Shown here piece by piece: positions 44,364 to 61,828 of a stretch of 64,000 bases of DNA. This DNA comes from an uncultured Myxococcales bacterium. Lineage in GTDB: Bacteria; Myxococcota_A; Polyangia; Polyangiales; Polyangiaceae. The DNA is taken from assembly GCA_937872925.1 (NCBI GenBank), contig CALMUT010000015.1, positions 1 to 64,000 of the forward strand. The letters are read 5' to 3'. Both the position numbers and the translations under genes were made by a program. The stretch's first letter is position 1. Each line of letters opens with the position of its first letter. The notes beneath the pieces were generated by a model. It ran no database searches, had not been told where the DNA came from, and saw only the letters and a program-made list of their open reading frames with translations.

Positions 44364-46319
44364 ATGTCCCTGGTTTCCTTGAGGCGCTCTGCGTCCGCTC
44401 CGGCGCAAAGCCGCGGGTTCCTGCCGACCACGCGCCGAGAAATGCAGGAGCGTGGCTGGGACGAGCTCGATATTCTGATCGTCACCGGCGACGCATACGT
44501 CGACCACGCTGCCTTCGGCCCCATCTTGATCGCACGCTTTCTCGAAGGGCGAGGCTATCGCGTCGGAGTCATCGCGCAGCCGCGATGGCAAGACGCCGAA
44601 GACATCGCGCGCATGGGACGTCCTCGACTCTATGTGGGCGTCAGCGCGGGCAACATGGACAGCATGCTGAACAAGCTAACCGCCCAGAAGAAAGTGCGCG
44701 CCGAGGATCAATACTCTCCAGGTGGACGCCCCGGCGCGCGTCCCAATCGCGCGACACTGGTCTACGCAAATCTGTGTCGGCAAGCGTTCCCAGGGTTGCC
44801 GGTGGTCCTGGGTGGCATCGAAGCCTCCCTGCGGCGGATTGCTCACTACGACTACTGGGCCGATCAGATCCGGCGTTCCATCTTGCTAGACGCCAAGGCG
44901 GATCTGCTGGTTTTTGGCATGGGAGAACGCGCCGCCTGGGAGATCGCTCAGCGCCTCGACGCTGGCGAGGCGATCTCCGCGCTCACGGATATTCGCGGGA
45001 CTGGCTATCGCCTGGGCAAGCCGAGTCAGTGGCAGCCCATGGTGGAAGATAGCAGTCGCTACGTGCCCGACGGAAAGGTGGTTGTGCTTCCCAGTTACGC
45101 CGAGGTCTCCCGCGACAAACTCGCCTTCGCACGCATGACCCGGCAGTTCCAGGTGGAGACCAACCCGCACAATGCGAGGCCGCTTCTGCAAGTCTTCGAT
45201 CGAGAGGCGGTCTACTTCAATCCTCCGGCATTGCCTCTGGCGACGGAGGACATGGACGCTCTCTACGATCTGCCGTTCCAGCGTCTGCCGCATCCCAGCT
45301 ACGGCGGTGAACGCATTCCAGCGTTTGATACGGTCAAGGAGTCCGTGGTGACCATGCGGGGCTGTTTCGGGGGCTGCACGTTCTGCAGCATCACCGAGCA
45401 CGAAGGGCGCATCATTCAGAGCCGCTCCGCCGAGAGCGTGCTTCGAGAAGTGCGCGCGCTCACGCGCATGCAGGGCTTTTCCGGGGTGCTTTCCGATGTG
45501 GGCGGGCCCACGGCGAATATGTACCAATTGGCCTGCAAAGACCCGAAAATCGAGGCAGCCTGTCGGCGGCTGTCCTGCGTGCACCCCAAGGTCTGCGAAA
45601 ACCTCGGCACCGACCACGGGCCACTGGTCGACTTGCTCAGCCGAGTGCGCGAAGAACCCGGCGTGCGCCGCGTCTTCATTGCATCGGGGATCCGCTATGA
45701 TCTCGCCGAACGCAGCCCAGAGTTCATCGCCGACCTGGCCACGCACCACACAGGCGGCCAGCTGTCCGTCGCGCCGGAGCATACGGACCCAGAGGTGCTG
45801 GCGGCCATGAAGAAGCCGACCATCAACAGCTACGAGCGTTTCGCGTCGTCATTCTGTGAAGCGAGCGAGCGCGCCGGCAAGGAACAGTACTTGATCCCCT
45901 ACTTCGTCGTGGGTCACCCAGGGTCGGGCTTTGCCGACACCGTCGAACTCGCCCTGTGGCTGAAAGCGCGGAACATGCGGCCACGGCAAATCCAAGAATT
46001 TATCCCAACCCCCATGGCTGTGGCGACGGCCATGTACGTAAGCGGCGTAGATCCGTTCACCGAAAAACCGCTTCAAGTGGTGCGCGAACTGCGCGACAAG
46101 CGTCTACTCAAAGCACTCCTATTCTGGTGGGATGAAGAGAAGTGGCCACTGGCGCGAGAAGCGCTTGGACGTGCAGGCCGGACCGATTTGATCCGTCGCG
46201 GCGCTCAGGGGCTGGTGCCGCCCGGGAAAAAGCGCGAGCGAAAGCCTGGACGGCGCGCCCAGGGCGCAGGGAAAGCCGGCCGCGTGGTATCCTCCCGCCG
46301 TGGCGAGCACGGACGGTAG
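44364..46319 (+). CDS. YgiQ family radical SAM protein
   Basis: ATG 44364. The 651-residue protein has the N-terminal '[20 protein letters not shown]' and the '[20 protein letters not shown]' region typical of YgiQ. The radical SAM cluster motif C-x3-C-x2-C is at Cys334, Cys338 and Cys341 ('[19 protein letters not shown]'). Downstream motifs are '[19 protein letters not shown]' and '[18 protein letters not shown]'. The substrate of YgiQ is unknown. Cytoplasmic. It overlaps the next gene by 20 bases if that gene starts at GTG 46300. Confidence 0.95.
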
Positions 46320-47220
46320 CGGACGCCCCGCGGGCATTCCCCGGACGCTCAAGGCAGACGCGGACGTTTCCGTCGAGGTCATGCGGCGCGTGAAGGCGCC
46401 TCATCGCCCGATGCTGGTCGTGCTCAACGGAAACGAAGCCGACGTGGGGCGGCGGGTCATCGTCGACCGGACGCTGATAGTGGGTCGGGATCCGGAGGCC
46501 GGATTGAGCCTCACAGATGGCCTGGTTTCCTGGCACCACGCGCGATTGGAAGATCGCGGGGATGGCTGGGCCGTCGTCGATCTGGGCAGCACGAACGGTG
46601 TGCTGCTCAACGGCAACCCGGTGGAAGACGCCCAGCTCGCCGCCGGGGATACCTTGGTGTTCGGCAAAGCCGTTGCGCGCTTCGAACTGCAGGATGGAGC
46701 GGCCCAAGCGTACAACCAAGTCGTCGAAAAGCTGCTCAATACCGACGACTTGTCGGGGCTATTCGTGCGCCGCAAGTTCGACGCAGATCTTGCACAGCTG
46801 ATTGACGTCGCCCGTAACAAGGGCACGCCAGTGACGCTTTTGGTCATGGACTTGGACGGCGTGAAGGGCATTAACGACACGCACGGGCATCTTTTTGGAG
46901 CGTATGTGATTGGCGAGTCCGGCAGACTGATCGGCCAGCTGGTCGAGAAGCGCGGCATCGCGTGTCGCTTCGGCGGCGACGAATACCTTGCTGCTCTACC
47001 CGGAATGACGGCGGAACAGGGCGCCGCCGTCGGCGAGGAAATCCGCCTCACCATTGGCAGTCACCCCTTCGAGAAGGATGGGATCCCGCTTCGCCCCGGC
47101 ATCTCCATCGGCGTGGCGGCGTTTCCCACAGACGCAGCGAGCGCACAGGCATTGTTTCAACGCGCCGACGAGGCGCTGTATCGTGCTAAACAGGCCGGCA
47201 AGAATCGTGTCTCTTACTAA
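46300..47220 (+). CDS. FHA-GGDEF diguanylate cyclase
   Basis: GTG 46300 overlaps the YgiQ stop by 20 bases; ATG 46381 is an alternative that keeps the FHA domain. Residues about 35-125 are an FHA domain ('[20 protein letters not shown]', '[14 protein letters not shown]') that binds phosphothreonine. The rest is a GGDEF domain. The metal and substrate stretch '[18 protein letters not shown]' and the active-site '[11 protein letters not shown]' are intact, so it should make cyclic di-GMP. The inhibitory RxxD site five residues before GGDEY is absent ('RGIACRF'), which suggests no product inhibition. The FHA input links it to Ser/Thr kinase signalling. Cytoplasmic. Confidence 0.92.
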
Positions 47221-47596
47221 GCTGCTCGCGCCTTTTTCGGGGATCGCAATGCTGGTTGGCGCGGCTTGTACCGCCAATCCCGTCCCGGTCGTCAAAGAGG
47301 TGATCGGTCCCGACGGCACCCAGATGTTGCACGTCGATTGCCGCGGCAACGAAGCCGAATGCTACCAGGCCGTCGGTCGGCGCTGCCAGGCGGGCTACGA
47401 CTTGTTCTGGACCGTGTCTCGCGCGCCCGGCCGCTATCTAGTGCGCTGTCGCGCCCTTCGCTACGCGCCACCTCCGGCGCAACCGAATTGGGGTTGGGCA
47501 CGGGAAACCCGGCCCGTGGATCCTTGGCGCCCGCCTGCGCATCACGACGGCGGGCCCGATGCCGAACGCTACCCAAGTCTAGATTTGGGATACTAG
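47207..47596 (+). CDS. Small lipoprotein
   Basis: The most likely start is GTG 47207 ([21 protein letters not shown]), inside the last codons of the diguanylate cyclase gene; it gives a lipoprotein signal with lipobox LVGAAC. The 129-residue product has a small domain with four cysteines ('[20 protein letters not shown]' and 'CQAGYDLFW'), then a Pro-rich tail. It has no recognised family or catalytic motif. The 14-base overlap suggests translational coupling to the cyclase. Function unknown. Confidence 0.65.
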
Positions 47597-47622
47597 TGGG
47601 CTCAGAATTTAGGAGTTCCGTC

Positions 47623-48258
47623 ATGGACCGAAAGAACGTGTTTGTCATCACGCACCCGCTCATCTCGCACAAGCTGACGCTGATGCGGAAGAAGGACACC
47701 AGCACGTCGACATTCCGCGCCGCGCTGCAGGAGTTGTCTATGTTGATGGCCTACGAACTCACCCGGGACCTGCCGACGGTCGAGACCCAGATCGATACCC
47801 CGCTGATGCCCATGCGAGCGCCCGTGCTCGAGGGGAAGAAGATCGTGCTGGTGAGCGTGCTGCGGGCCGGCACCGGCATGTTGGATGGCGTGTTGAAGCT
47901 GATCCCGTCGGCGCGGGTGGGCCACATTGGGCTGTATCGGGATCCGAAGACCCTTGAGCCCGTCGAGTATTACTTCAAAGTACCGAGTGAAATGGCGGAC
48001 CGGGACGTCATCGTGATGGACCCGATGTTGGCGACCGGCAACAGCGCGGCGGCGGCGATCGAGCGCGTGAAAAGCACGCAGCCGCGAACCTTGAAGTATA
48101 TGTGTCTTCTAGCAGCGCCCGAAGGAGTGCGTCGGCTCAGCGACGCCCACCCGGACGTGCCGATCTACACTCCGGCAATCGACGAGCGTTTGAACGATCA
48201 CGGCTACATCCTGCCCGGCCTGGGCGACGCCGGCGATCGCCTGTACGGCACCAAATAG
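47623..48258 (+). CDS. upp: Uracil phosphoribosyltransferase
   Basis: ATG 47623 is preceded by AGGAG at 47611-47615. Converts uracil and PRPP to UMP in pyrimidine salvage. The 211-residue protein has '[20 protein letters not shown]' at the N-terminus, the PRPP loop '[19 protein letters not shown]' and the C-terminal '[20 protein letters not shown]' that holds the uracil-binding region ('[12 protein letters not shown]'). All are typical for Upp. Cytoplasmic. The 26-base gap after the lipoprotein gene allows one transcript but shows no functional link. Confidence 0.97.
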
Positions 48259-48266
48259 CTGAGTGG

Positions 48267-48734
48267 CTAGGGGCAACCCGGCTTGGGTCGTCGAATGCCG
48301 TCAGCGTCAACCGTGAACGGTGGATCGCATTCGGCGACTTCGAGGCACTCGGCCTTGATCGTGCGAATGCCACGACCATCGATGGCGTAGGGCGGGTCGC
48401 AGTCATGCTTGCGGCGCGCGGCGGCCGGTGCGGTCGGGCTGGCCGCTGGCAGCGGCGTCGTCGTCACGGCACCCCCCGCGCTGACCACCACCCGCGACCC
48501 ATTGCCCTCGAATTGGAAGCTGCCGTCCGCCCGGGGCGTGATCCGTCCTTGCTCGACGGTCGAGAGTCGTTTTTCGAGTTTATAGAGTCGGCCTTCGAGC
48601 ATCGCGACCCGCCCCGCTAAGGACACGGGTTGTTCCGTCGGGAAACGCGCTGCTTGGCTCGCGCCGGGCAGCGGTGTGAACAGCACAAGCAAACTCGCAG
48701 CAAGACTGAATCGGATGTGTGGCCGGACGAGCAT
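48267..48734 (-). CDS. Secreted protein with duplicated CDPP..D..GIR..K..C motif
   Basis: ATG 48734 (MLVRPHIRFSLAASLLVLFT) gives a signal peptide; an earlier in-frame start at 48770 would bury it. A short coiled-coil-like stretch ('RVAMLEGRLYKLEKRLSTVE') follows. The C-terminus holds two copies of a small Cys unit: 'CDPPYAIDGRGIRTIKAEC' and 'CDPPFTVDADGIRRPKPGC'. The repeat is probably a small disulphide- or metal-stabilised loop; I do not recognise the family. Convergent with upp, the stops being 8 bases apart. Confidence 0.7.
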   Translation of the reverse strand: MLVRPHIRFSLAASLLVLFTPLPGASQAARFPTEQPVSLAGRVAMLEGRLYKLEKRLSTVEQGRITPRADGSFQFEGNGSRVVVSAGGAVTTTPLPAASPTAPAAARRKHDCDPPYAIDGRGIRTIKAECLEVAECDPPFTVDADGIRRPKPGCP

Positions 48735-48921
48735 GCCCGCGAGAATACGAACGGCGGCGTTTTCGAACAACCGGGCCAGGCCGGCGGCGTAGCGCGGTCG
48801 TCAGGTGTTCAGCGGTTCGGGACAGGAACCGTCGCCGCGCCGAAGAGCGCCCCAAAGGCGGGCAGCTTCTGATAGCGTAAGTGCCCCAACTGACGTCGTT
48901 TTTTACCGGAGTAGGACAGGC

Positions 48922-51900
48922 ATGGCACGAGGCTCGTCGCGCATTCTCAGGGTGGAGGAGCTCGACGGCTTGATGGACGCGTCCCTCGAGTCGCCGGAAC
49001 CCGTTCTGGAAGCGCTGGTGACTGCAGCGGCAAAGGGCCAGCTGTTTCCAGAGTTGTGGGCGAAGCTGCACGCGGTCGCTGCGCGAGATGACAAGGCTGC
49101 GGAACTCGCCTTTGCATACGAACACGTGGCGCAGGATCGGCGCATCAAGCTCGTACCGCCAGAGATACAGGCGGCCATCTTTCTCAATGCGTCGACCTAC
49201 TTCGCGGAGACCTTTGGGGATCTCGACGGTGGTGTTTCTTTTGCGGAGCGGGCCATGGGCGCGGCTCCAACGAGTGTCGACGCGCAGTCGATGCTGGAGT
49301 CGCTACTCGGGCGCCTTGGGGATCGCGCGCGACTTGCAAAGTTCTTCGCGGAACTCGCGGGGCACGAACGGGATCCTGAGCTGCAACTGAAACACCTGCG
49401 ACGCGCTCGCGCTGAACTCGAAGGGACCGAAGACAGCACCGACTTGGTCATCGAGGTCAGCCAGAAGATCTTGCGTGCGGACCCGACCGACTCTGCGGCT
49501 CGGGAAGGCCTGGAGCGCGCCTACCTTGCCGCGGGCAAACCCCGCGAAGCCACCAAGGTATTGGAACAGGCGCTGCTGCGGGATCCACCCATGCCCGAGG
49601 AGGAAGCGTTCTTCCTGCATGAACATCTCGTCGATCTGTATACGGATGCCACCCAAGAGCCGCATCGGGCAGTGCCCCATCTAGAGGCCATTCTGGCCAG
49701 CCGCCCCGATCACGAGCGGGCACTTTCGGCGGCGGAAGCGTTGCTGGAAAACCGCGCCGTGGCGGGCCGCGTGGCGGCGGCTCTGTCGGATGCCTACGGC
49801 AAACTCGGCACGACCTCTCGCGAGTTGGAACTGCTCAATATGGAGCTGAAGCTTGCACGCGGACCGCGGCGTCTGGAGGTGCAGCGTCGATTGGGACTGT
49901 TGCGTCGCGAGCAAGGGGACCCGACCGGCGCGATGGAGCTGCTCGGCCCGGTGGTTGCAGCGGAGCCCGGCGACGACGAAGTCCGCGAGGCCTACGTGGA
50001 CCTGGCGCTCAGCTTGGAACAACCCGGCGCAGCCGCTCGGCTGCTGTCGCGGGCACTTTCGTCCTGCAAGGAGCCGGTCGCCCGCGCCCGGGTAGGAGCA
50101 GACATCGGGACGGTGTATCTGCGTTCCGGCGACGTGAAGCGTGCCCAGGCCGCGTTCCAACAGGTGCTGGAGAGCGGCGAAGACGAACGCGCCATGCTGG
50201 TCTCTTCCCGGCACTTGGTGGACATTTTCACGGAAAGTGGCGACACGCACGGCCTTGCCGGCGCCTTGGACGCCTGCGTGCGCCATGAGCCGGACGCAGA
50301 AGCGCGCCAAAGCGCCGCGCGTCGATTGGCCAAGCTGGCCGAAGGTGAGCTTGGCGACACCGCCCGAGCCATGACGGCGTGGAGCGCGTTGGTCGATTCC
50401 CCTTGGGCGGATGAAGCCCTGACGCGACTGACGGCCCTGTGTGAGGCGAGCGGGGACCACGCGCGCATGGTGGATGTCTTGGAGAAGCGCGCGGCTCGCG
50501 CGAAGTCCCCTGAAGACGCGCGCGAATTGGCCCTGCGCGCGGCGGAGCTACGGACCAGTCAGGGCGGGGACCGAGCGGAAGCCCTGGATGCGTGGCGCGC
50601 GTTCATCGCCAAATACGGCTCGACGCGCGATGCCCACGCGAAAATGATCCCGCTGCTGGAGCAGGAGCAACTGTGGAAGGAGCTGGCGTGGGTCCTTGAG
50701 CGCGACATCGAGCTAGCGCCCCAAGGCGAATGGCCGGTGCTGCTTAGTCGGTTGGCGCAGATCCGGTTGCAGCGCTTGGAAGACGCTCCCGGGGGAGTCG
50801 AAGCCTACAAGCGGGCATTGGACGCTGACCCCAGCGATCGAAGCGTACGGCAAGCCGTCGAGAAGCTACTGACCGCAGACAGCACGCGAGGGCTAGCCAT
50901 CGGAGTGCTGGAGCCGATCTACCGACAGGAAGCCCCCGGCGCCGGGCTGATCCGATTGCTGGAGGCCAAAGCCGCGGTCTGCGAGGACGCTGAAGTTGCC
51001 CTCGCAACCCTTGGCGAAGCTGCCCAGCTCGCGGACACCGCCCTCGAAGATGCCGAGCGCGGCCTGCAAATCGCCGGCGCCGCGCTGCGACTCGCTTTGG
51101 ATCAGAACGTCGCTCTGCGCCCCTGGGTCGCTCTGGTCGAGTCATTCGGTGAGAAGCTCGGCGCCCCGGGGCCCCGGGCCGAGACCCTGGCCGCCGCCGT
51201 CGGTGACCGAGAGATCACCTCTGAAGAGCTTTTTGAGCTGACTCGCGCCGCCGGAGAAGCTTTGGCGGACGCCGGCGCCCTGGAGCGCTCGGTCACCGTG
51301 CTGCGCCGCGCACTCAGTTATTCGCCGAGCGACGCAGCGCTGCTGAATCGCATCGATGAGTTGCTCGCCGAGCAGGGCAACCCCGAAGAACGCTTGACGC
51401 TATACCGGTCAGCCCTGGAGCAGCCCGGCGATGCGCGACGGCGTCGGCAAATCCTCCACGCACTGGCGCGGCTGCAGTCCGGAGACCTCGCGGACGCGGA
51501 TGGCGCAGAAGCCAGCTGGAAGACGGCGCTTTCAGACGATCCAAAGGACTTCGTCGCCCACCAGGCCCTCGCCGACCTGTATGCCTCTCAACGCAAGTGG
51601 GATGCCCTTTATGCCGAGCTCCAGCGCGTGCTGGAGCACGCCGAGGGTGAGCGCCAGGTCCAAGTGCGCGTGCGCATGGCTGAGGTGTCGGCAGAAGCGG
51701 GCGAACCCCAACGCGCGCTTGCGCACTATCGGGAGCTTCTCGAAAGCGCGGAGTTGGAAGACACGCAGCTAGAAAACATCGAGCTGTTAGCGAATGCCAA
51801 CGCCGACGCACCCACCTTGCGCGCGGTGTTGACGCGCCGAGTGGCAGTGGCCGTGCCTGAGGAGAAGGCCGGCCTGCTGGAAAAGCTGGGCATCGTGCTG

Positions 51901-54900
51901 TCCAACCAGCTGGGGGACGACGAAGAAGCTCGCAAGGCGTGGCTGCAGGGTGCAGAGCTCTCCGAAGCCGCCATGGACGACGAGCGTGCGCGTCGGCTGT
52001 ACGAGCGCGTGCTGTCCGTCGCCGCAAGCGACGCCAGCGCGGCGCGGCGATTGGTCGAGCTCTATGCTCGCGCCGGCGATTGGACCAAGGTCCCCGGAGC
52101 ACTGACCGCATTGCTTTCCGAGAGCAGTGGCGAGCTAGACGTCACCACCATTGTACTGGGCCTAGAGCCTGCGGCCGTCGCCGCCTTCGCCCACGAGACC
52201 CTGGCCGCACTCGTCGACCAGGTGTTGCAGCTTGGCGAGCTTGCCCCCGCAAAGTCCCGGGCGCTGCTTTCGTGCAAGGCGCGCGCGCTTTCGGCGGTGC
52301 CTGAGCGCCGGGGCGAGGTGGCGGGGGTGTATCGGACATTGCTTGGCGCGGAATCCGAGGATGGTCCGCAGGTGGCCGATGCGTTCAATGTCTTCCTGGC
52401 CGCAGGCGAACTGACGCCGGAACGCGTAGAAGACCGACGCTTCCTATTCCAGTGGCGGGTGCGACACGCGGCAGATCCGGTCACCGTGCTCATGGCCTGG
52501 GCCGTCACTGAAGAGACCACCTTTGCCAGCATTGAAAGCGCCATCGCGGTCTACGAGCAGGTGGTGCAGCACGATCCGGAACGGCTGGAGGCACTGTCGC
52601 AGCTGGCGCGGCTCCGTGCGGCTTCGGGGGATCCCGAGGGCGCTCTCGCCACCTTGGCGCAGCTGCGGGAACGCGGAGATGCCGACGGCCGCCTTGCGGT
52701 CGAGACGACGATGGCCACTCTGTATTTGGATTTGGGTCGCCCCGAAGAAGCCTTGGAGCTAGTGGAACGGATCCTCGATACGGCGCCCCATGACCCGGGA
52801 GCCCTGGCCCTCGTGAAGCGCGCCCTGGAGCACGACGCCGCGCGCGCCAAGGCAGCAAAGCTCCTAGACCGCCTGGTGCAGAGCGTCGAAACCGAAGCTG
52901 AGCGAATCGAAATGCTCGAGTCGCTGTTGGCAATCAGCGAAGGCGTTGACGAACTCTTGGACTCCCGAGGGCGCTGGTTCACCCAACTGCTCGAGTGCAC
53001 TCCGGACGACGACGCGGCGCGTCTTCAGATCGCCCTGCGCGGCGCAGTCGAGCGTCCTCAAGAAGAGCAGTTGTGGGATGCCGCCGAGCGCGCCGCCCGG
53101 AAGCTGAACCAGCCCGAGCCCCTGGCCGACGCGTATTCCAGCGCTCTGGACACGCCCCTGGACGCGGAGCTCGCCGAAGAACTTGGCCGGCGCATGGTGG
53201 AGTTCACCGAAGAGTGGTTCGACGAACCCGAGCGCGTCGTCACGCTTCTGAAGAAGGTGCTCTCGCTCAGCCCGGGAGCCAACTGGGCCTTTGATCGACT
53301 GAAACTGGCATTCAACGCCGCAGGGCGTTGGGACGATCTATTCGAACTCTATGACGCGGCCCTGGCGCGTGCCACGACGGATCCCGAGCGCATCGAGCTA
53401 CTGCGGGAAGCGTCCATGGCGGCTAAGGACTTCGCGTCTAATGCCCAGCGCGCCATCGAATACCTCGAGGGTCTGTTCCGCCTCGAACCCGACGACGAAC
53501 GTATCGGTGCTGCGCTGGAACGGTTGTACGAGCGGGAGGTCCGAGTCGAACCCCTGATTGCGCTGCTTGAAGGCCGACTTGTAGGCGCCGACGAAGAGAC
53601 TGCGGAGCGCTTGCACGTCCGCATCGCCGGGCTGTGGCTGGATTTGAACGATGCAGTGCGTGCCTACGCAACCATCGAGACCCTGACCGAGGGCGGCTGC
53701 TCTGCTGAAACAACCCGGGAGCTTCTGGAACGCCTGGTCACCCTGCCGGCAGCTCGCGAGAGTATTGCGCCGCAAAGCGAGCAGAAGAAGGCAAAGAAGA
53801 ACAAGAACCAGAAGCGAGCCATCAGCGTGCGGCATGCCGCGGCAGAACGCCTGAAGCACGCCTACCAAGAGTCCGGCGCGGTGCATGACGTCGCACGGAT
53901 GGTGGAGATCGAACTCGAGCTCGCCGAAAGCAATGAAGAACGCATTTCCGGTTTGGAGGCGCTGGTGGCGTTGCGCTTGGACAAGCTCGATGACGTCGCC
54001 GGAGCGTTCGAACCCACGGCGCAGTTGGTCGCACTCGCCCCGTCTGAAGCAAGCTATCGGGAAAAGCTAGGAGCGCTTGCCAAAGAGCTCGGACTCGCAG
54101 AACGCCGCGCGGACGTGCTGGTCACCGTAGCGGATGGCGCGACGGACCCAACGATCCAACGGGACCTGGTGTTAGAGGCGGCCGAAGTGCGGCGCGACGA
54201 TCTGGACGACGTGCCGAACGCCATCGGACTATTCGAACGGGCGTTTGCGTTATCCGAAGACGACGCGGCATCGTCGCTACGGGCCGCGCGGGCGCTCGAC
54301 CCTCTGCTCGATCGCGCGGGGCGGCACGCCGAGCGCGCCGATATCCTGGAACGGCTTGCGGGCCTGACTCAGGATGCCGATGAACGTCGCAGGGCCCTGG
54401 GCAACGTCGCGGAAGTCGCTGCGATGCGCCTGGATGATTTGCAACGCGCCGTGCGTTGCTATCGCCTGCGCTTGGACGACGACGCCCAGGACGCCGAGGC
54501 GTTGGACGGTCTCTGCGAATCCTTGGCTCGGGCCAATATGCACGCGGACCTGGTCGAAGCGCTGCTACTGCGCGCGGAACGCGGCGGACTGGCCGCCCGG
54601 GAAGATCTCTGGCGCGTTGCCGAGTTGTATACGGAACGGCTGAACGAACCCGCCCAGGCTATCGATGTGTGGAATCGCATCGAGAAGGAGCACTCCCCGA
54701 CCGGGGAGACCTTCCGCGCGTTGGTGGCGCTGTTGTCGGAGCAGTCCCGCTGGGAGGAACTCACGCGCCGCATCGCGAGCCAAGTGGAAAAGGAAGAGGA
54801 CCCGGAGCAGCGACGGGCGCTGCTCTCGGAACTCGCCACCATCTACCGCTCCAAGACCGGTGAGCTCTCCAAGAGCTTGGCTGCCTTCGTGCAGGCCGGG

Positions 54901-57900
54901 GACTGGGCAGCCGCTGTGGATGTGTGTGCTTCCGAGGTCGAAGACCGCGCGCGTGCCAAGCAGCTCCTGCGGGAATTACTCGATCTGAGCGTTGGCGCCT
55001 GGAAGGAGCAAGGCGTCGATGCTGGGCAAGATGCGTCCGAAGCAGCTGAGGCCTTGGGACCGCTCGATCCCCCGGGGGCCGCGGAGTGGGCCATTTCCGA
55101 GCTATCTCGGCGCTTGAGTGCGGAAGCTGAGCACAGCTCGGTCATCGAATTGTCCGTGCGCGGCCATGGGCTTCCCTTTGCCGAAGAGCGTCGTCGAACG
55201 TTCCTGAAGGACGCCGCGTGCATCGCCTCGGACCAATTGGGGGATAGTGCCGGCGCCATCGAGCTATTCGCTCGGCTCTTCCAAGAGAACCCCGCCGACG
55301 AGGTCGCGCAGGGCGCTGTCGCGCGCTACGCGAAGTTGCTCGAAGAAGCCCACGCGCATGAGGCGCTCTGTTCGCTGTGGGAAGAACAAGCACGCTGCCG
55401 CGCGGAGCTGTCGGATACGGCTCGGGCCAGCGTTCTTTATGCCCGGGCTGCGGAAATTGCCGAGCGGGAACTCGCCGACGCGCAGCGTGCCATGCGGGAC
55501 TACCGCGCCGGATCGGCGCTCGGTGGGGAAACAAGCCTGGAAAACCTGGCGCGATTGCTGGAGGCCAACGAGCAGTGGCTGGAAGCGGCGCACGTTCTGG
55601 AGTGGCTGTGCGCACAGTCTTCCCGGGAAACCCTCGCACCGCGGGCCCTGCGCCTGTCGGAGGCGTATCTGAAGGCAGATCACCCCGAGGTTGCGCGGCT
55701 GCGTCTGGAGGCGGCGGCACAGACCGCCCTCGACGCTGGGCCCGTGCGTCAGCGACTGAGCGACTTGTACCGCGCCAGTGAAGACTGGACGCCCCTGGCG
55801 GAGCTCCTGGCGCAAGACGCTGCTCGCACCGCCGACAAGGCGCGTCGACTCGCCCTGTTGATGGAAGCGGCGGCGCTGCATACCAAGAAGCGCAACGACC
55901 CCGAAAGCGCCGTGGAGCTCTTGACCCAAGCCGTCGAGGTCGAACCCGACGACGCCTCCGTGCGGCGAGCACTTGCGGACGCGCATTCCCGGGCCGGCAA
56001 CTTTGACGGCGCCGTGGAAGTGCTGCGCGCGCAAATTGAGCAATACGGCAGCCGCAAACCCAAAGAACGCGCCTTGGTTCACTTCCAGCTGGCGCGCGTT
56101 TCGCTCAGTGCTGGGCGCCGGGCCGAGGCCATCGCTGAACTCGACGTTGCCAACAAGATCAACCCAGCGCATCCCGGCATATTGCAGGCGCTGGCGCAGT
56201 TGGCCTTTGAAGAGGAACAGTACGATCGCGCCGAACGCATGTACCGGGCGCTGCTGCTGGTGATTGGACGCGACGAAGATGAGGACGCGCCAAGCCGCTC
56301 CGAAGCGTTGCTCGACCTGAGTGAAATCGCGGCGAAGAAGTCCGACGAGCTTCGGGCGGGCGAGTTCATTGAATCTGCATTCGAAGCCGCCTTGGAGAAC
56401 GAGCGGGAGAGCATCGCGTTGGAGCGCGCGCTGAGCGATCGGAAGCGCTACGACCTGCTTTCGCGCGCCGTAGAAACACGCTTAGATCGGGCCCCGAATG
56501 CCGAGACGGCCGCCCGGGCCCTGTCGGATCTGGCATTCCTACATGCGGAGCATCTTGGTGGTTTGGCCGGCGTTGAAGAGCGGCTGCGTGAGCGCGCCGG
56601 GGAGCTGCAGGGAGAACTCGAATCCGCCGGCGTGAGCGACGAGCGCGCCTGGGAGGCGCTGTCGCGAGTCTTCGATTGGCTGGGAGACGCCGACGCCGAG
56701 GCGCGCGTCCTGGAGCGTCGCATCGAAAGCGGCGTGCGCGGCAAACCAACGCGGGCAATGGTCGAGCCCTACTATCGCTTGGCTGCCATCTACTTCGAAG
56801 GCACCGAACACCGAGAGCGGGCAGTAGAAGTGCTGGAGCGCGCGCTGGAGATCTGGCCCGACGTCGCACGCGCGGAAGAACTGCTGCGCGCGGCTCTGGC
56901 GGAGCACCCCGACGTCGTGGCTGTCGTGGCGCTATTTGAGCGCGTCGCCCGTTCCAGCGGGGATGCTCGCAAGTTGCTGGATGCCCTGGTGCTGCTCGCG
57001 CGGCTGCCCGACGCTCGGATCGAGGTCGTGCGCGAGGGCGTCGAGCTTGCCGATACCTTGGAAGAGCACGCGCTCTCGCGGTTGCTCCTCGAATCTGGTC
57101 TCAACATGACGGAGCGGCTTTCGGACGAGGATGGCGCTTGGGTGCGCCTCGAACTGGCTGCGCGACTCGATGCGACGGGCGATGCCGCCCGGGCGCTCGA
57201 CCTGAGGGAGGCCGCGGCTCCATTGCTCGATCCGACGGCGGCGCGTGCGGCGTGGCTCGACGTAGCCGGCCGCGCGCGGAGTGAGCTTTCGGACGACCGT
57301 CGTGCCGCGAGGATCTACGAGAAGCTTTTGGAGCAGGAACCCGCGGATCGTGAAGTGTGGCAGCCGCTGCTCGAGATCTACCGCGCTCTCGAAGAGGGCG
57401 AGCAACTGGTGCGCGTGCTGGATCAGACCATCACCTTGGTGGATTCCGCGGAAGACCGCGCCCGGCTGCGTTTGGAGCAAGCGAATCTGCTGCTGGATCG
57501 CGGGGAAGGGGACAGCGCTGCAGACATCTTGCGGGAGATCTTGGACGAAGATCCGGCGCACGTACGGGCGTCAGAATTGCTCTCCGGGCTCTATGAAGAG
57601 CAGGGCAAGACCGACGAACTCGTGGCGCTCTACGCCGCCCGCGTCGATTCTGCCAAAGACCGTCAGGACACCGCCGTGATCGGTGCGACGTCCCTGAAGC
57701 TCGGTCGGCTGTTGGAGCGTCTGGACCGACCCGACGACGCGTTTGACGCATACAACGCAATCACCGATTGGGATCGTAGTCTGGAAGACGCATGGCGGTC
57801 GTTGCTGCGGCTCTCGGAGAAGCGCGAAGACCCATACTTGATTGCCGAAATGCTCGAAGGCCTGCTGGGCGTCGTGCGCGGAGACGAGGCGCTCAGTCTG

Positions 57901-59382
57901 ACCGAGCGCCTGGTGGAGGCGCGGCGAGAACTCATGGACGAAGAGGGCGTGGAACGCGCCTTGGAGCTCGGCTTCGTTGCGTGCCCGGACAATGCGGATT
58001 TGCGTGAGCCGCTACTGCAACGCTGCGCAGAACTCGGCGACTACAGTCGGGCCACGCGACTGCTTGCCCAGGCCGCGCTGCATTCGTCGGACCGAACGCT
58101 GGTCACGCAACTCGTGGAGATGGCCCTGCAAGCGAACGAAAGCGAAGCGGCACTCGAAACCCTGCAGCGCCTGATCGAAGCAGAGCCCCAAGACGCCGAA
58201 CTGACGCTAAGCCAGGCGCAGCTTTTGGAGGCCGCGGATCGGGTGGAAGAGGCGGTGAGCGCGTACGAAGCCGCAGCAGAACTCGGCGTAGACGTCAGCG
58301 CACCCCTGTCCAGCGTTCTGGAGCGGGCCATCTTACGCGCGGAGCCGCCCCTCGATCGCGAACTGTCCCTGAAGCTTGTTCAGCTGTACGAAGGCGCGGG
58401 CAACACGGACGCGGCACGAGTACGCCTGTCGGAAATGCTCAAGGAAAGTCCGGCAGATGCCAGCCTCTGGCACAGGCTAGCGGAAATGGAGGTCGCGGGC
58501 GGTCACTGGGATGGCGCCGCAACCGCGTACCGCAAGCTCATCGCCCTGACTGAGGGAGACGACTTGGTCAATACCGCGCTGTGGCTGGCGCACTCATGTG
58601 AACAGGCGGGGCGACCCGGCGATGCCCGGGGCGGCCTCGAGCGCGCGCTGTCCGTTGCACCAGAGCGGGAGGACCTGCGCGAGCGGCTGGTGCATTTGTA
58701 TACCTTGACGGAGGAGCACCGCGCCCTGGCAGAACTCTTGCTGGCCCAAGCCGAAGGCGAGCAAGACATCGCAACGCGGCACGCGCTTTTGCTCACTGCG
58801 GGTTCACAGCTGCTATTCATCGAGGACGCTGCGCCCGAGGGCCTGCGGGTATTGGACGAAGCCCGCAGCTTGAGCCCGGAGAGCATCGAAGGCAGCGTGG
58901 CGTACGCCCGCGGTCTGGCCGTCGTCGGCCGGCCAGACGAAGCGATGACGCTCTTGAACGAAATCATCGCAGGCTTCAAGGGGCGCCGCGCAAAGGAACT
59001 GGGTCCCGTATACCGGCAGATCTCCGAGCTGCAGCTCGCCGGCGGCGTGCTCGACGAAGCGCTCGCTTCGCTGAACAAGGCCTTCGAGATGGACATGAAG
59101 AATCCGATGGTTGCCCTGGAGCTGGGTCAGCTAGCCCTCGACATGGATGACCAAGACATCGCGGCCCGCGCGTTCCGGGCCGTGACCATGCTGCGCCCAA
59201 CGGATGATGCTCCGGATGCGGTCACCCCGGAGCATCGGGCCCACGCGCAGTTTCAGCTCGCGGTCATGGCGCGCAACCAGGGGGACGAGCGCAGGGCGCG
59301 GGTCTTGGTCAACAAGGCACTGTCAGAAAACCCGGAGCACGGACCGGCTCAAGAGCTCAAGGCCGAGTTAGAGGCGGGCTGA
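48922..59382 (+). CDS. Giant tetratricopeptide-repeat scaffold protein
   Basis: ATG 48922 (MARGSSRILRVEELDGLMDA) is preferred to an in-frame start 39 codons upstream. The gene is 10.5 kb without a break, encoding about 3,486 residues. It has no signal peptide or membrane segment, so it is inferred to be cytoplasmic. Almost the whole length is amphipathic helix-turn-helix repeats of TPR type ('AREGLERAYLAAGKPREATK', 'LALAYARTGD'-like units, 'AHPGILQALAQLAFEEEQYD', 'ALASLNKAFEMDMKNPMVAL'), very rich in Ala, Glu, Leu and Arg. The only clear break is a basic patch 'QKKAKKNKNQKRA' near residue 1623. TPR arrays bind partner proteins, so a large assembly platform is the likely role; partners are unknown. 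It overlaps the convergent BASS gene by 34 bases. Confidence 0.9.
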   Translation: MARGSSRILRVEELDGLMDASLESPEPVLEALVTAAAKGQLFPELWAKLHAVAARDDKAAELAFAYEHVAQDRRIKLVPPEIQAAIFLNASTYFAETFGDLDGGVSFAERAMGAAPTSVDAQSMLESLLGRLGDRARLAKFFAELAGHERDPELQLKHLRRARAELEGTEDSTDLVIEVSQKILRADPTDSAAREGLERAYLAAGKPREATKVLEQALLRDPPMPEEEAFFLHEHLVDLYTDATQEPHRAVPHLEAILASRPDHERALSAAEALLENRAVAGRVAAALSDAYGKLGTTSRELELLNMELKLARGPRRLEVQRRLGLLRREQGDPTGAMELLGPVVAAEPGDDEVREAYVDLALSLEQPGAAARLLSRALSSCKEPVARARVGADIGTVYLRSGDVKRAQAAFQQVLESGEDERAMLVSSRHLVDIFTESGDTHGLAGALDACVRHEPDAEARQSAARRLAKLAEGELGDTARAMTAWSALVDSPWADEALTRLTALCEASGDHARMVDVLEKRAARAKSPEDARELALRAAELRTSQGGDRAEALDAWRAFIAKYGSTRDAHAKMIPLLEQEQLWKELAWVLERDIELAPQGEWPVLLSRLAQIRLQRLEDAPGGVEAYKRALDADPSDRSVRQAVEKLLTADSTRGLAIGVLEPIYRQEAPGAGLIRLLEAKAAVCEDAEVALATLGEAAQLADTALEDAERGLQIAGAALRLALDQNVALRPWVALVESFGEKLGAPGPRAETLAAAVGDREITSEELFELTRAAGEALADAGALERSVTVLRRALSYSPSDAALLNRIDELLAEQGNPEERLTLYRSALEQPGDARRRRQILHALARLQSGDLADADGAEASWKTALSDDPKDFVAHQALADLYASQRKWDALYAELQRVLEHAEGERQVQVRVRMAEVSAEAGEPQRALAHYRELLESAELEDTQLENIELLANANADAPTLRAVLTRRVAVAVPEEKAGLLEKLGIVLSNQLGDDEEARKAWLQGAELSEAAMDDERARRLYERVLSVAASDASAARRLVELYARAGDWTKVPGALTALLSESSGELDVTTIVLGLEPAAVAAFAHETLAALVDQVLQLGELAPAKSRALLSCKARALSAVPERRGEVAGVYRTLLGAESEDGPQVADAFNVFLAAGELTPERVEDRRFLFQWRVRHAADPVTVLMAWAVTEETTFASIESAIAVYEQVVQHDPERLEALSQLARLRAASGDPEGALATLAQLRERGDADGRLAVETTMATLYLDLGRPEEALELVERILDTAPHDPGALALVKRALEHDAARAKAAKLLDRLVQSVETEAERIEMLESLLAISEGVDELLDSRGRWFTQLLECTPDDDAARLQIALRGAVERPQEEQLWDAAERAARKLNQPEPLADAYSSALDTPLDAELAEELGRRMVEFTEEWFDEPERVVTLLKKVLSLSPGANWAFDRLKLAFNAAGRWDDLFELYDAALARATTDPERIELLREASMAAKDFASNAQRAIEYLEGLFRLEPDDERIGAALERLYEREVRVEPLIALLEGRLVGADEETAERLHVRIAGLWLDLNDAVRAYATIETLTEGGCSAETTRELLERLVTLPAARESIAPQSEQKKAKKNKNQKRAISVRHAAAERLKHAYQESGAVHDVARMVEIELELAESNEERISGLEALVALRLDKLDDVAGAFEPTAQLVALAPSEASYREKLGALAKELGLAERRADVLVTVADGATDPTIQRDLVLEAAEVRRDDLDDVPNAIGLFERAFALSEDDAASSLRAARALDPLLDRAGRHAERADILERLAGLTQDADERRRALGNVAEVAAMRLDDLQRAVRCYRLRLDDDAQDAEALDGLCESLARANMHADLVEALLLRAERGGLAAREDLWRVAELYTERLNEPAQAIDVWNRIEKEHSPTGETFRALVALLSEQSRWEELTRRIASQVEKEEDPEQRRALLSELATIYRSKTGELSKSLAAFVQAGDWAAAVDVCASEVEDRARAKQLLRELLDLSVGAWKEQGVDAGQDASEAAEALGPLDPPGAAEWAISELSRRLSAEAEHSSVIELSVRGHGLPFAEERRRTFLKDAACIASDQLGDSAGAIELFARLFQENPADEVAQGAVARYAKLLEEAHAHEALCSLWEEQARCRAELSDTARASVLYARAAEIAERELADAQRAMRDYRAGSALGGETSLENLARLLEANEQWLEAAHVLEWLCAQSSRETLAPRALRLSEAYLKADHPEVARLRLEAAAQTALDAGPVRQRLSDLYRASEDWTPLAELLAQDAARTADKARRLALLMEAAALHTKKRNDPESAVELLTQAVEVEPDDASVRRALADAHSRAGNFDGAVEVLRAQIEQYGSRKPKERALVHFQLARVSLSAGRRAEAIAELDVANKINPAHPGILQALAQLAFEEEQYDRAERMYRALLLVIGRDEDEDAPSRSEALLDLSEIAAKKSDELRAGEFIESAFEAALENERESIALERALSDRKRYDLLSRAVETRLDRAPNAETAARALSDLAFLHAEHLGGLAGVEERLRERAGELQGELESAGVSDERAWEALSRVFDWLGDADAEARVLERRIESGVRGKPTRAMVEPYYRLAAIYFEGTEHRERAVEVLERALEIWPDVARAEELLRAALAEHPDVVAVVALFERVARSSGDARKLLDALVLLARLPDARIEVVREGVELADTLEEHALSRLLLESGLNMTERLSDEDGAWVRLELAARLDATGDAARALDLREAAAPLLDPTAARAAWLDVAGRARSELSDDRRAARIYEKLLEQEPADREVWQPLLEIYRALEEGEQLVRVLDQTITLVDSAEDRARLRLEQANLLLDRGEGDSAADILREILDEDPAHVRASELLSGLYEEQGKTDELVALYAARVDSAKDRQDTAVIGATSLKLGRLLERLDRPDDAFDAYNAITDWDRSLEDAWRSLLRLSEKREDPYLIAEMLEGLLGVVRGDEALSLTERLVEARRELMDEEGVERALELGFVACPDNADLREPLLQRCAELGDYSRATRLLAQAALHSSDRTLVTQLVEMALQANESEAALETLQRLIEAEPQDAELTLSQAQLLEAADRVEEAVSAYEAAAELGVDVSAPLSSVLERAILRAEPPLDRELSLKLVQLYEGAGNTDAARVRLSEMLKESPADASLWHRLAEMEVAGGHWDGAATAYRKLIALTEGDDLVNTALWLAHSCEQAGRPGDARGGLERALSVAPEREDLRERLVHLYTLTEEHRALAELLLAQAEGEQDIATRHALLLTAGSQLLFIEDAAPEGLRVLDEARSLSPESIEGSVAYARGLAVVGRPDEAMTLLNEIIAGFKGRRAKELGPVYRQISELQLAGGVLDEALASLNKAFEMDMKNPMVALELGQLALDMDDQDIAARAFRAVTMLRPTDDAPDAVTPEHRAHAQFQLAVMARNQGDERRARVLVNKALSENPEHGPAQELKAELEAG

Positions 59383-60359
59383 GGTCGCGGCTTCGGCCGC
59401 CGCAGGAGCACGGCGCTTTTTCCGAAGCGATGTCTGAGCATCGCGGGGATGGCGAATGCTGGCGAGGCGCCGGCATAGAATAGTGCGGAGAAGAGCACCA
59501 TGCCTTGCTCTTTCTGGCCCGGGAAGAAGAAGTGCACCACGAGCAGGCCCAAACCGACATTGCGCACGGCGACCTCGATGGTGAGCGCGACCGTGTCGTC
59601 GTCGAAACGACCGAGCAGTCGGCACAGCTGCGGGATGGAGACCGCCAAGAAGGTCCCGAAGAGCACGATGATGAGGGGCGGGCCGAAACCATATTCGGCG
59701 AGCCGGATCCGGCCGGTTCCTAGGGAGGCCACGGCGATGGTGATCACCAGCGCCAAACTGCCGCGGATGGCCCAGCGGCTGATCCCGGGGGCCGCGCCCG
59801 GGAATCGCTTCCGAATCGCCATGCCGAAGGCAAGCGGCGCCAACAAGTATCCGAAAATTTCCGCCATGACCCGGGGGATCGGGAAGTGAAAATCCGGTGG
59901 CAAGATCGCGCCGGCGCCGAGCTGGAGGATCAAAGGTACGGCCAGCACCGAGCCAAGGGTGGTCACGCTGGTCACGGCAATGCTCAGGGGCACGTTGCCT
60001 CGGCCCAGGAAGGTCAGCAGATTAGAAAAGGCGCCCCCGGGTACGGCGCTGACGAGCAACAGCCCGACGGCCCAGCCCTGGGAAAGGCCAAAGACGTGGA
60101 TGAATCCCATCGCGACGGCCGGCACGTACAACCACTGCAAGGCAAGGCCAATGGCGAGGCCGCGCGGATCCCGACCCACGCTGCCGAAATCCGCAACAGT
60201 CATCGTGGCGCCCATGCCCAGCATCGCCAAGATGAGCTGGGCCGGCACGAGAAAGGGCTCGATGCTTTGATACACGAGGCAGCGCTCGCGCAGCCCATAC
60301 GTCGGAAGCGGGGCGGAGGGAAGTGGACCTTGACCGCCGAGGGAAAACTCGGCTTTCAT
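59349..60359 (-). CDS. Bile acid:sodium symporter family (BASS/SBF) transporter
   Basis: ATG 60359. The 336-residue protein has about nine or ten hydrophobic segments and matches the BASS family: 'LGMGATMTVADFGSVGRDPR' (first unwound helix region), 'VSAVPGGAFSNLLTFLGRGN' (the conserved P-G-G-x-x-S-N substrate site) and 'EVAVRNVGLGLLVVHFF' (second crossing). BASS proteins are sodium-coupled uptake carriers for organic anions such as bile acids or pyruvate. Substrate unknown. Inner membrane. The start codon overlaps the ATG of the opposite-strand gene (shared CATG). Confidence 0.9.
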   Translation of the reverse strand: MKAEFSLGGQGPLPSAPLPTYGLRERCLVYQSIEPFLVPAQLILAMLGMGATMTVADFGSVGRDPRGLAIGLALQWLYVPAVAMGFIHVFGLSQGWAVGLLLVSAVPGGAFSNLLTFLGRGNVPLSIAVTSVTTLGSVLAVPLILQLGAGAILPPDFHFPIPRVMAEIFGYLLAPLAFGMAIRKRFPGAAPGISRWAIRGSLALVITIAVASLGTGRIRLAEYGFGPPLIIVLFGTFLAVSIPQLCRLLGRFDDDTVALTIEVAVRNVGLGLLVVHFFFPGQKEQGMVLFSALFYAGASPAFAIPAMLRHRFGKSAVLLRRPKPRPQPASNSALSS

Positions 60360-60690: not shown

Positions 60691-61761
60691 TCAGCGTTTT
60701 CGCGCGCTCTTCTTCTTCGAGTTCCGGGCGACGCTCTTGCTGCGCGACTGCTTCGTCGTGCCCCGCTCCAGCCCCCCCAGCGCGGCCCGGTACATCGACT
60801 GCTTGCGTTCGAGGGCCACTTCGTGGCCCATATCCGCGGGCGTGCTGATGCGCGTCGGCACCGAGTGTTTCTTGAGAATGTCGCGGAGTTGGTGGGTGCC
60901 TTCGATCACACCGTCCTGCTCTCCGGTGATCAAATAGACCCGGCGCAGGCGGGACTTCGACTTTGCCAAGGCTTCCAGGCCGGGACCGCCCCAATAGCTG
61001 GTCTTGCCCGCAAGGATCAGCAGTCGGTTGAAGGTGCGGGCCTCGCGCACACCGACGTTCATCGTGACGTAGGCGCCCTCGGAGAATCCAATCAGCGTAT
61101 TGCCGTAGAGTTGCACCCGACGCCCGAATTGGTCCCGGAAGCCTTTGACCACGGCGAGGGCAGTGCGCTGGCCCACGGCCCAGTTATTGTTCCATCCGCG
61201 GCCGTCTCCGCGAGCACCGGGCCCCGACGGACACACCAACCAGCCAAGCCGACGCACGATCGGTGCCCAGCGCCGGCAATCGTGTCCTGGATTGCCGCCG
61301 CGCCCATGCATGTACACGTAGAGCGGACGCATGGCCAATCGCCCGGGGCCGGTGGGTTGGTAGAAGTACGCGGGCCCCACGCCTGGCAAGTCGATCACAC
61401 GCAGGCCGTCGTTGCCGATCCGACGGATCTTGCCTTGGTCGTCGTCCTTGTCGTCTGAGTCGTCTGCCTTCTCAGGCTCTTTCTTTTCCGGCGACTTGGC
61501 TTTGGGCGGTGGTTCCGCCTTGGGGGGCGGGGCGCTACCGTCTTCCGAAGGGATGACCAAGCGCTGACCGGGCTTGATCGGATCCCGGCGCGTGATCCCG
61601 TTCGCCTTGCACAGATCGTCGATGCCGACGTTGTACCGTTTCGCGATGCGGCCGAGGGTGTGCCCTGCCGCCACGACATGGGTGCGGGGCTTCGCGAACG
61701 CCGGCGCGGCCAGCGTGAGGGCGAAGATCAGGCTCAGGCAAATCGCGGCGATGCGCGGCAT
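60691..61761 (-). CDS. LysM domain-containing exported alpha/beta hydrolase
   Basis: ATG 61761 (MPRIAAICLSLIFALTLAAP) gives a signal peptide. A LysM module (about residues 28-72: 'HVVAAGHTLGRIAKRYNVG', 'IKPGQRLVIP') should bind peptidoglycan or chitin-type glycans. A Lys/Glu/Asp/Pro linker leads to a 220-residue alpha/beta-hydrolase domain with 'YVYMHGRGGNPGHDCRRW', nucleophile elbow GFSEGAY, Asp in 'LITGEQDGVIEG' and His in 'PADMGHEVALE'. The C-terminus is a very basic Lys/Arg tail. Inferred: esterase or depolymerase-like enzyme held on the cell wall. Substrate unknown. Confidence 0.82.
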   Translation of the reverse strand: MPRIAAICLSLIFALTLAAPAFAKPRTHVVAAGHTLGRIAKRYNVGIDDLCKANGITRRDPIKPGQRLVIPSEDGSAPPPKAEPPPKAKSPEKKEPEKADDSDDKDDDQGKIRRIGNDGLRVIDLPGVGPAYFYQPTGPGRLAMRPLYVYMHGRGGNPGHDCRRWAPIVRRLGWLVCPSGPGARGDGRGWNNNWAVGQRTALAVVKGFRDQFGRRVQLYGNTLIGFSEGAYVTMNVGVREARTFNRLLILAGKTSYWGGPGLEALAKSKSRLRRVYLITGEQDGVIEGTHQLRDILKKHSVPTRISTPADMGHEVALERKQSMYRAALGGLERGTTKQSRSKSVARNSKKKSARKR

Positions 61762-61828
61762 GGGCCAAGCGGTAGCACATCCTCGGGGGATCGGGGCAAA
61801 CCGGAGCAATGTTAACGGTGATAACATT

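Follow-up and report, generated by a model that had tools for sequence, protein, structure and literature searches.

The window, a stretch of 64,000 nucleotides from an uncultured Myxococcales bacterium of the family Polyangiaceae, carries a single giant gene whose product consists of TPR repeats. The genes at the locus, and the regions distinguished within the giant gene, are the following:

47266..48258, plus strand: upp, uracil phosphoribosyltransferase (PF14681, E=1.6e-74, from residue 127)
48267-48770, minus strand: 167-aa ORF between upp and the giant gene
48922..59382, plus strand: giant TPR gene, 3,486 aa; intact in 36 other near-full-length loci
48922..53016, plus strand: N-terminal extension, residues 1 to about 1365; missing in 2,600-aa relatives
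48952..50118, plus strand: second core copy within the extension, residues 11-399 (core profile E=2.4e-30)
52453..54930, plus strand: AlphaFold model of residues 1178-2003; all helices, mean pLDDT 91.2
52951..54210, plus strand: core region, residues 1344-1763; common to a ~3,800-aa paralogue and the short relatives
53176..53568, plus strand: most conserved block by relative entropy, residues 1419-1549; candidate partner-binding site
53782..53856, plus strand: basic linker, residues 1621-1645; net charge +9
54799..57261, plus strand: AlphaFold model of residues 1960-2780; all helices, mean pLDDT 90.6
56044..56403, plus strand: second-ranked conserved block in the relative-entropy profile, residues 2375-2494
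58471..59325, plus strand: C-terminal module, residues 3184-3468; diverged repeat of residues 2207-2488
59349..60359, minus strand: SBF/BASS carrier (PF01758); convergent, overlapping the 3′ end of the giant gene by 34 bp; not part of the system

The open frame around the giant gene spans 48805 to 59382 on the plus strand, and the ATG at 48922, with a GGAG motif 10 nt upstream (48908-48911), agrees with the starts of the orthologues. The product (382 kDa, pI 4.76) is rich in A, L, E and R. Since the highest hydropathy mean over 19 residues is 1.57, it has no transmembrane segment, and inspection of the N-terminus revealed no signal-like start. Pfam matches were TPR and related solenoid models and nothing else, and NCBIfam returned TPR-containing families, all below cut-off except for one PPR repeat model just at cut-off. 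A preliminary description, made from the letters of the DNA, had announced a single 10.5-kb gene for a TPR protein of about 3,486 residues with no catalytic, signal or membrane segment, and the open frame, the orthologue starts, both family searches and the hydropathy profile agree with it. Comparison of the gene with its nearest relative gave a dN of 0.35 and a dS of about 1.5. A search for a sigma-70 promoter-like site for the gene found none, and terminator-like sites were no commoner than in shuffled sequences.

Self-comparison of a nine-sequence profile gave peaks at offsets of 17, 34, 72, 37 and 20, which reads as an alternation of repeats of ~34 and 37-38 residues forming a double unit of 72 residues. 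TPR units were counted with a scoring matrix, using shuffled and held-out controls. The iterated matrix found 77 units, where 2 are expected from shuffling, and a profile trained only on proteins outside the window subgroup found 73 units, versus 0-4 in shuffled copies. With this held-out profile, units were present from end to end and the longest stretch lacking one was 84 aa. The protein thus displays the tandem 34-residue helical hairpins with TPR consensus that define a TPR alpha-solenoid, and at about 36 residues each it could hold up to 97 hairpins over its whole length. The two overlapping AlphaFold models were helical throughout, with low-confidence points at residues 1626-1630, in the basic linker, and at 2037-2040. 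The best PDB fold matches of the modelled region found by Foldseek were the TPR scaffolds Ski3, IFT-A subunits and Ctr9. Like the giant protein, these eukaryotic proteins are long TPR solenoids, but the likeness is one of fold only, common descent beyond the TPR not being evidenced. The preliminary description had proposed both the profile scan and the modelling of overlapping segments, and had named few TPRs or a large enzyme domain as results that would speak against a pure scaffold. With 73 units, models at a pLDDT of 91 and no enzyme domain, neither came about.

The neighbourhood points to no partner. The true start of upp lies inside ORF 47266..48258, and upp is a neighbour rather than part of the system. 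The flanking genes had been named correctly as upp and a BASS carrier (PF14681 and PF01758), but the 167-aa minus-strand ORF, divergent to the giant gene, follows upp. Its product has no Pfam match, contains a CDPPY/CDPPF motif twice and has a similar counterpart in the sister genome. Just 5′ of upp, the window encodes an FHA-GGDEF protein (46300-47220, plus strand) that is also retained in genome G014. Throughout about 70 orthologous neighbourhoods no shared partner gene was found and synteny was local to subgroups, so that the earlier remark that context suggests no partner holds well beyond the window. A LysM-domain protein gene (window 60691-61827, minus strand) is convergent downstream in at least 10 orthologous loci; it was considered as a conserved neighbour and set aside as subgroup-level synteny, at 10 of about 70 loci. 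Ser/Thr kinase genes near 13 of the ~70 loci were likewise set aside, their frequency being judged, not computed, to be no more than expected for myxobacteria.

Within the protein, conserved blocks were ranked by a relative-entropy profile over 37 near-full-length sequences, which placed residues 1419-1549 at the top and 2375-2494 next. The C-terminal module matches residues 2207-2488 at 30% identity (E=5e-17). Between residues 1960 and 2780, members of the window subgroup are 350-500 residues shorter than other long members. A basic patch near residue 1623, singled out in the preliminary description, is indeed present (residues 1621-1645), but its charge and length vary among the 37 sequences and its pLDDT falls under 50 at residues 1626-1630. 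The patch is a disordered, unconserved linker, and was rejected as a functional site.

Relatives of ~2,600 aa, from other families of Polyangia, align from about residue 1366 of the window protein onward and are without its 1,365-residue N-terminal extension. They belong to the same clade, with 40% identity over 2,600 residues to a long member (G011). In a sample of 377 genomes, full-length matches to the long form came from the window's own family only, and other members of the clade only from the same class; named carriers of the window type include Sorangium cellulosum, Polyangium fumosum and Minicystis rosea. The extension contains a second copy of the core, which the core profile also recognised in orthologues (E=2e-41 and 7e-40), and the extension with this copy was gained in the window's family. 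Because some genomes (M. rosea, G008 and G221) hold both forms, long and short proteins are paralogues there and not simple length variants. One exception is a 3,928-aa protein from another family of the order (G026, contig C47, L225:1-20000). Its core lies near residue 1340, an inner position like that in the window protein, but the tree places it among the short relatives; its N-terminal part may be an independent extension.

The giant protein has relatives well beyond its own clade. Myxococcota carry a superfamily of TPR proteins of 2,500-4,200 aa, of which GltI/AgmK is the sole characterised member. The ortholog survey across the phylum proposed in the preliminary description yielded core-profile matches (E<=1e-25) in 120 of the 235 Myxococcota genomes, mostly in open frames of 2,500-4,200 aa. 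The window protein has a significant match to the shared core, with a score of 521 bits as against 150-190 for GltI-type proteins and 80-110 for TPR paralogues of 1,800 aa; since sequences of both the window clade and the ~3,800-aa paralogue went into the profile, the scores of these two, and with them the membership of the window clade, are partly circular. On contig C371 of the window genome lies a paralogue of ~3,800 aa and on C219 a second of at least 2,384 aa; several others are ~1,800 aa long or truncated at a contig end. Aligned profile to profile, the window protein and the ~3,800-aa paralogue are colinear over 3,171 columns, almost the full length, with residue-level agreement and clear identity in the core; this makes a strong case that the two are paralogous. 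In the window genome a TPR lipoprotein gene (L019:8102-8965) directly precedes the gene of the ~3,800-aa paralogue (L019:9014-20000, continuing at L020:3-404), unlike the window gene. A downstream gene often follows it and is conserved with it in several families, and the paralogue is present in more families of the order than the window type. It is conserved more strongly than the window gene and looks uncharacterised too. A further class of giant TPR proteins of ~3,380 aa was noticed (L198:718-14265 and L199:435-14211), whose gene order (FHA-type gene, small TPR-type gene, giant) resembles the glt cluster. The preliminary description was right about the anatomy of the scaffold but did not recognise that the protein belongs to a superfamily and has paralogues in its own genome, nor that its N-terminal part holds a duplication.

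GltI/AgmK (MXAN_4863) of Myxococcus xanthus, encoded in the G1 gliding cluster, is described as a TPR protein that lacks signal and membrane segments (PMC3169522) and, within the gliding machinery, as a large intracellular scaffold with GltG as partner (PMC13104615). In one review AgmK is instead called a transmembrane protein (PMC9120999), and its length is given as 4,132 aa (PMC3169522) or 3,812 aa (PMC9120999). GltI-type proteins were recognised here by the core profile together with gene context, rather than by the M. xanthus GltI sequence, and it is through these proteins that the homology of GltI to the window protein is drawn. In the sister genome (G001), a gene for a 3,789-aa TPR protein comes after a gltF/CglF match, a gltG match that falls short of the family cut-off (E=3e-99) and a TPR lipoprotein gene. 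The same gltF-gltG-lipoprotein-giant order is found in the window genome over the ends of three contigs, C111 (L260), C253 (L259) and C219 (L024), among which the gltI cluster is split. NCBIfam GltE gave no match at the strict threshold across the phylum. The direct match between the window protein and a GltI-type protein amounts to 100 bits at 22% identity, colinear between residues 1379-3320 and 1437-3281. Common descent of the two is likely from these comparisons, with moderate confidence in paralogy. TPR likeness can, however, arise by convergence on the consensus, and because the direct match is weak, common descent is less firm here than for the ~3,800-aa paralogue.

Could the window gene then be gltI itself, displaced from its cluster? 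Like GltI as described in PMC3169522, its product is a giant, all-TPR protein of the same size class that lacks signal and membrane segments. Nevertheless, the GltI gene lies behind gltF/gltG whereas the window gene lies elsewhere, and in both the window genome and its sister another gene, of ~3,790 aa, holds the place directly behind gltF, gltG and the TPR lipoprotein gene. Strain So ce26 keeps the window-type gene and a giant behind FHA-type and TPR-type lipoprotein genes 6 Mb apart, and in each of So ce26, P. fumosum and M. rosea the window type and the 3,800-aa paralogue are accompanied by a third giant (3,760-3,860 aa), which in So ce26 is the one that follows the FHA-type and lipoprotein genes. 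In the core tree, a quick tree with SH-aLRT support only and a midpoint root, the window clade (SH-aLRT 100) is separate from both the 3,800-aa paralogue and the GltI types. Since GltI coexists elsewhere in the window genome, the window protein is not GltI but a member of a separate clade of the superfamily. Displacement of gltI is refuted by the second gene behind gltF/gltG and is very improbable. Even less credence can be given to the idea that the gene conceals an enzyme domain or has been misread and is an NRPS/PKS or adhesin gene, for which gene length alone would speak: Pfam, NCBIfam, the all-helical models and the TPR coverage, with uncovered stretches of at most 84 aa, leave no enzyme domain, and catalytic, carrier and extracellular repeat domains and a signal peptide were not found by Pfam, NCBIfam and hydropathy, so that this reading is refuted at the sequence level.

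Two further explanations concern what such a solenoid would do. Like Ski3 or SRP72, it could work on RNA or in association with ribosomes instead of acting as a machine platform; Ski3 is among the best fold matches, SRP72 is a weak sequence match and the basic linker could touch nucleic acid. However, the overall pI is 4.8, the linker is unconserved and a fold match between TPR solenoids does not tell one function from another, which leaves an RNA role improbable. It could also be that the protein functions much as GltI does, but as the scaffold of a machine of envelope or motility type that is distinct from Glt gliding and in which it has a motor or cytoskeletal partner of its own. Paralogy with GltI and the occurrence of giants behind FHA (GltG-like) and TPR-lipoprotein genes point that way, but an envelope or motor gene is linked in none of the about 70 loci, and we regard this version as possible though doubtful.

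The best reading of the giant TPR gene is that of a monocistronic gene for a cytoplasmic scaffold paralogous to GltI. The product would be a TPR superhelix, soluble, acidic and entirely helical, with about 75-97 hairpins, and would belong to a Polyangia-specific clade whose members in the window's family gained the N-terminal duplication. It most likely would act as GltI is presumed to act, as a long cytoplasmic platform with several proteins docked along its grooves, for which residues 1419-1549 and 2375-2494 are the best candidate sites. Scaffold function, cytoplasmic location and docking sites are all inferred from the protein's build and kinship. That it would be a platform for a large assembly is a sound inference, given that GltI, a member of the superfamily, has itself been described as a large scaffold inside the cell (PMC13104615). 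To the joint reading, an all-helical TPR superhelix that is an ancient paralogue of GltI in a Polyangia-specific clade and a long cytoplasmic docking platform, we assign a probability of roughly 0.65. Going one step further, it might tentatively be proposed, against somewhat unfavourable odds, that Polyangia possess, beside the GltI scaffold, at least one further machine scaffolded by a giant TPR protein, with the window gene as its platform.

GltI, which ranks with the largest components of the gliding machinery and with those least understood, is here placed in a giant TPR family with multiple paralogues. Across Polyangiaceae, one lineage of this family persists as an intact gene of 10-12 kb with no linked partner, which provides a defined set of targets and raises the question of whether the scaffold principle may be used by myxobacteria in more than one machine.
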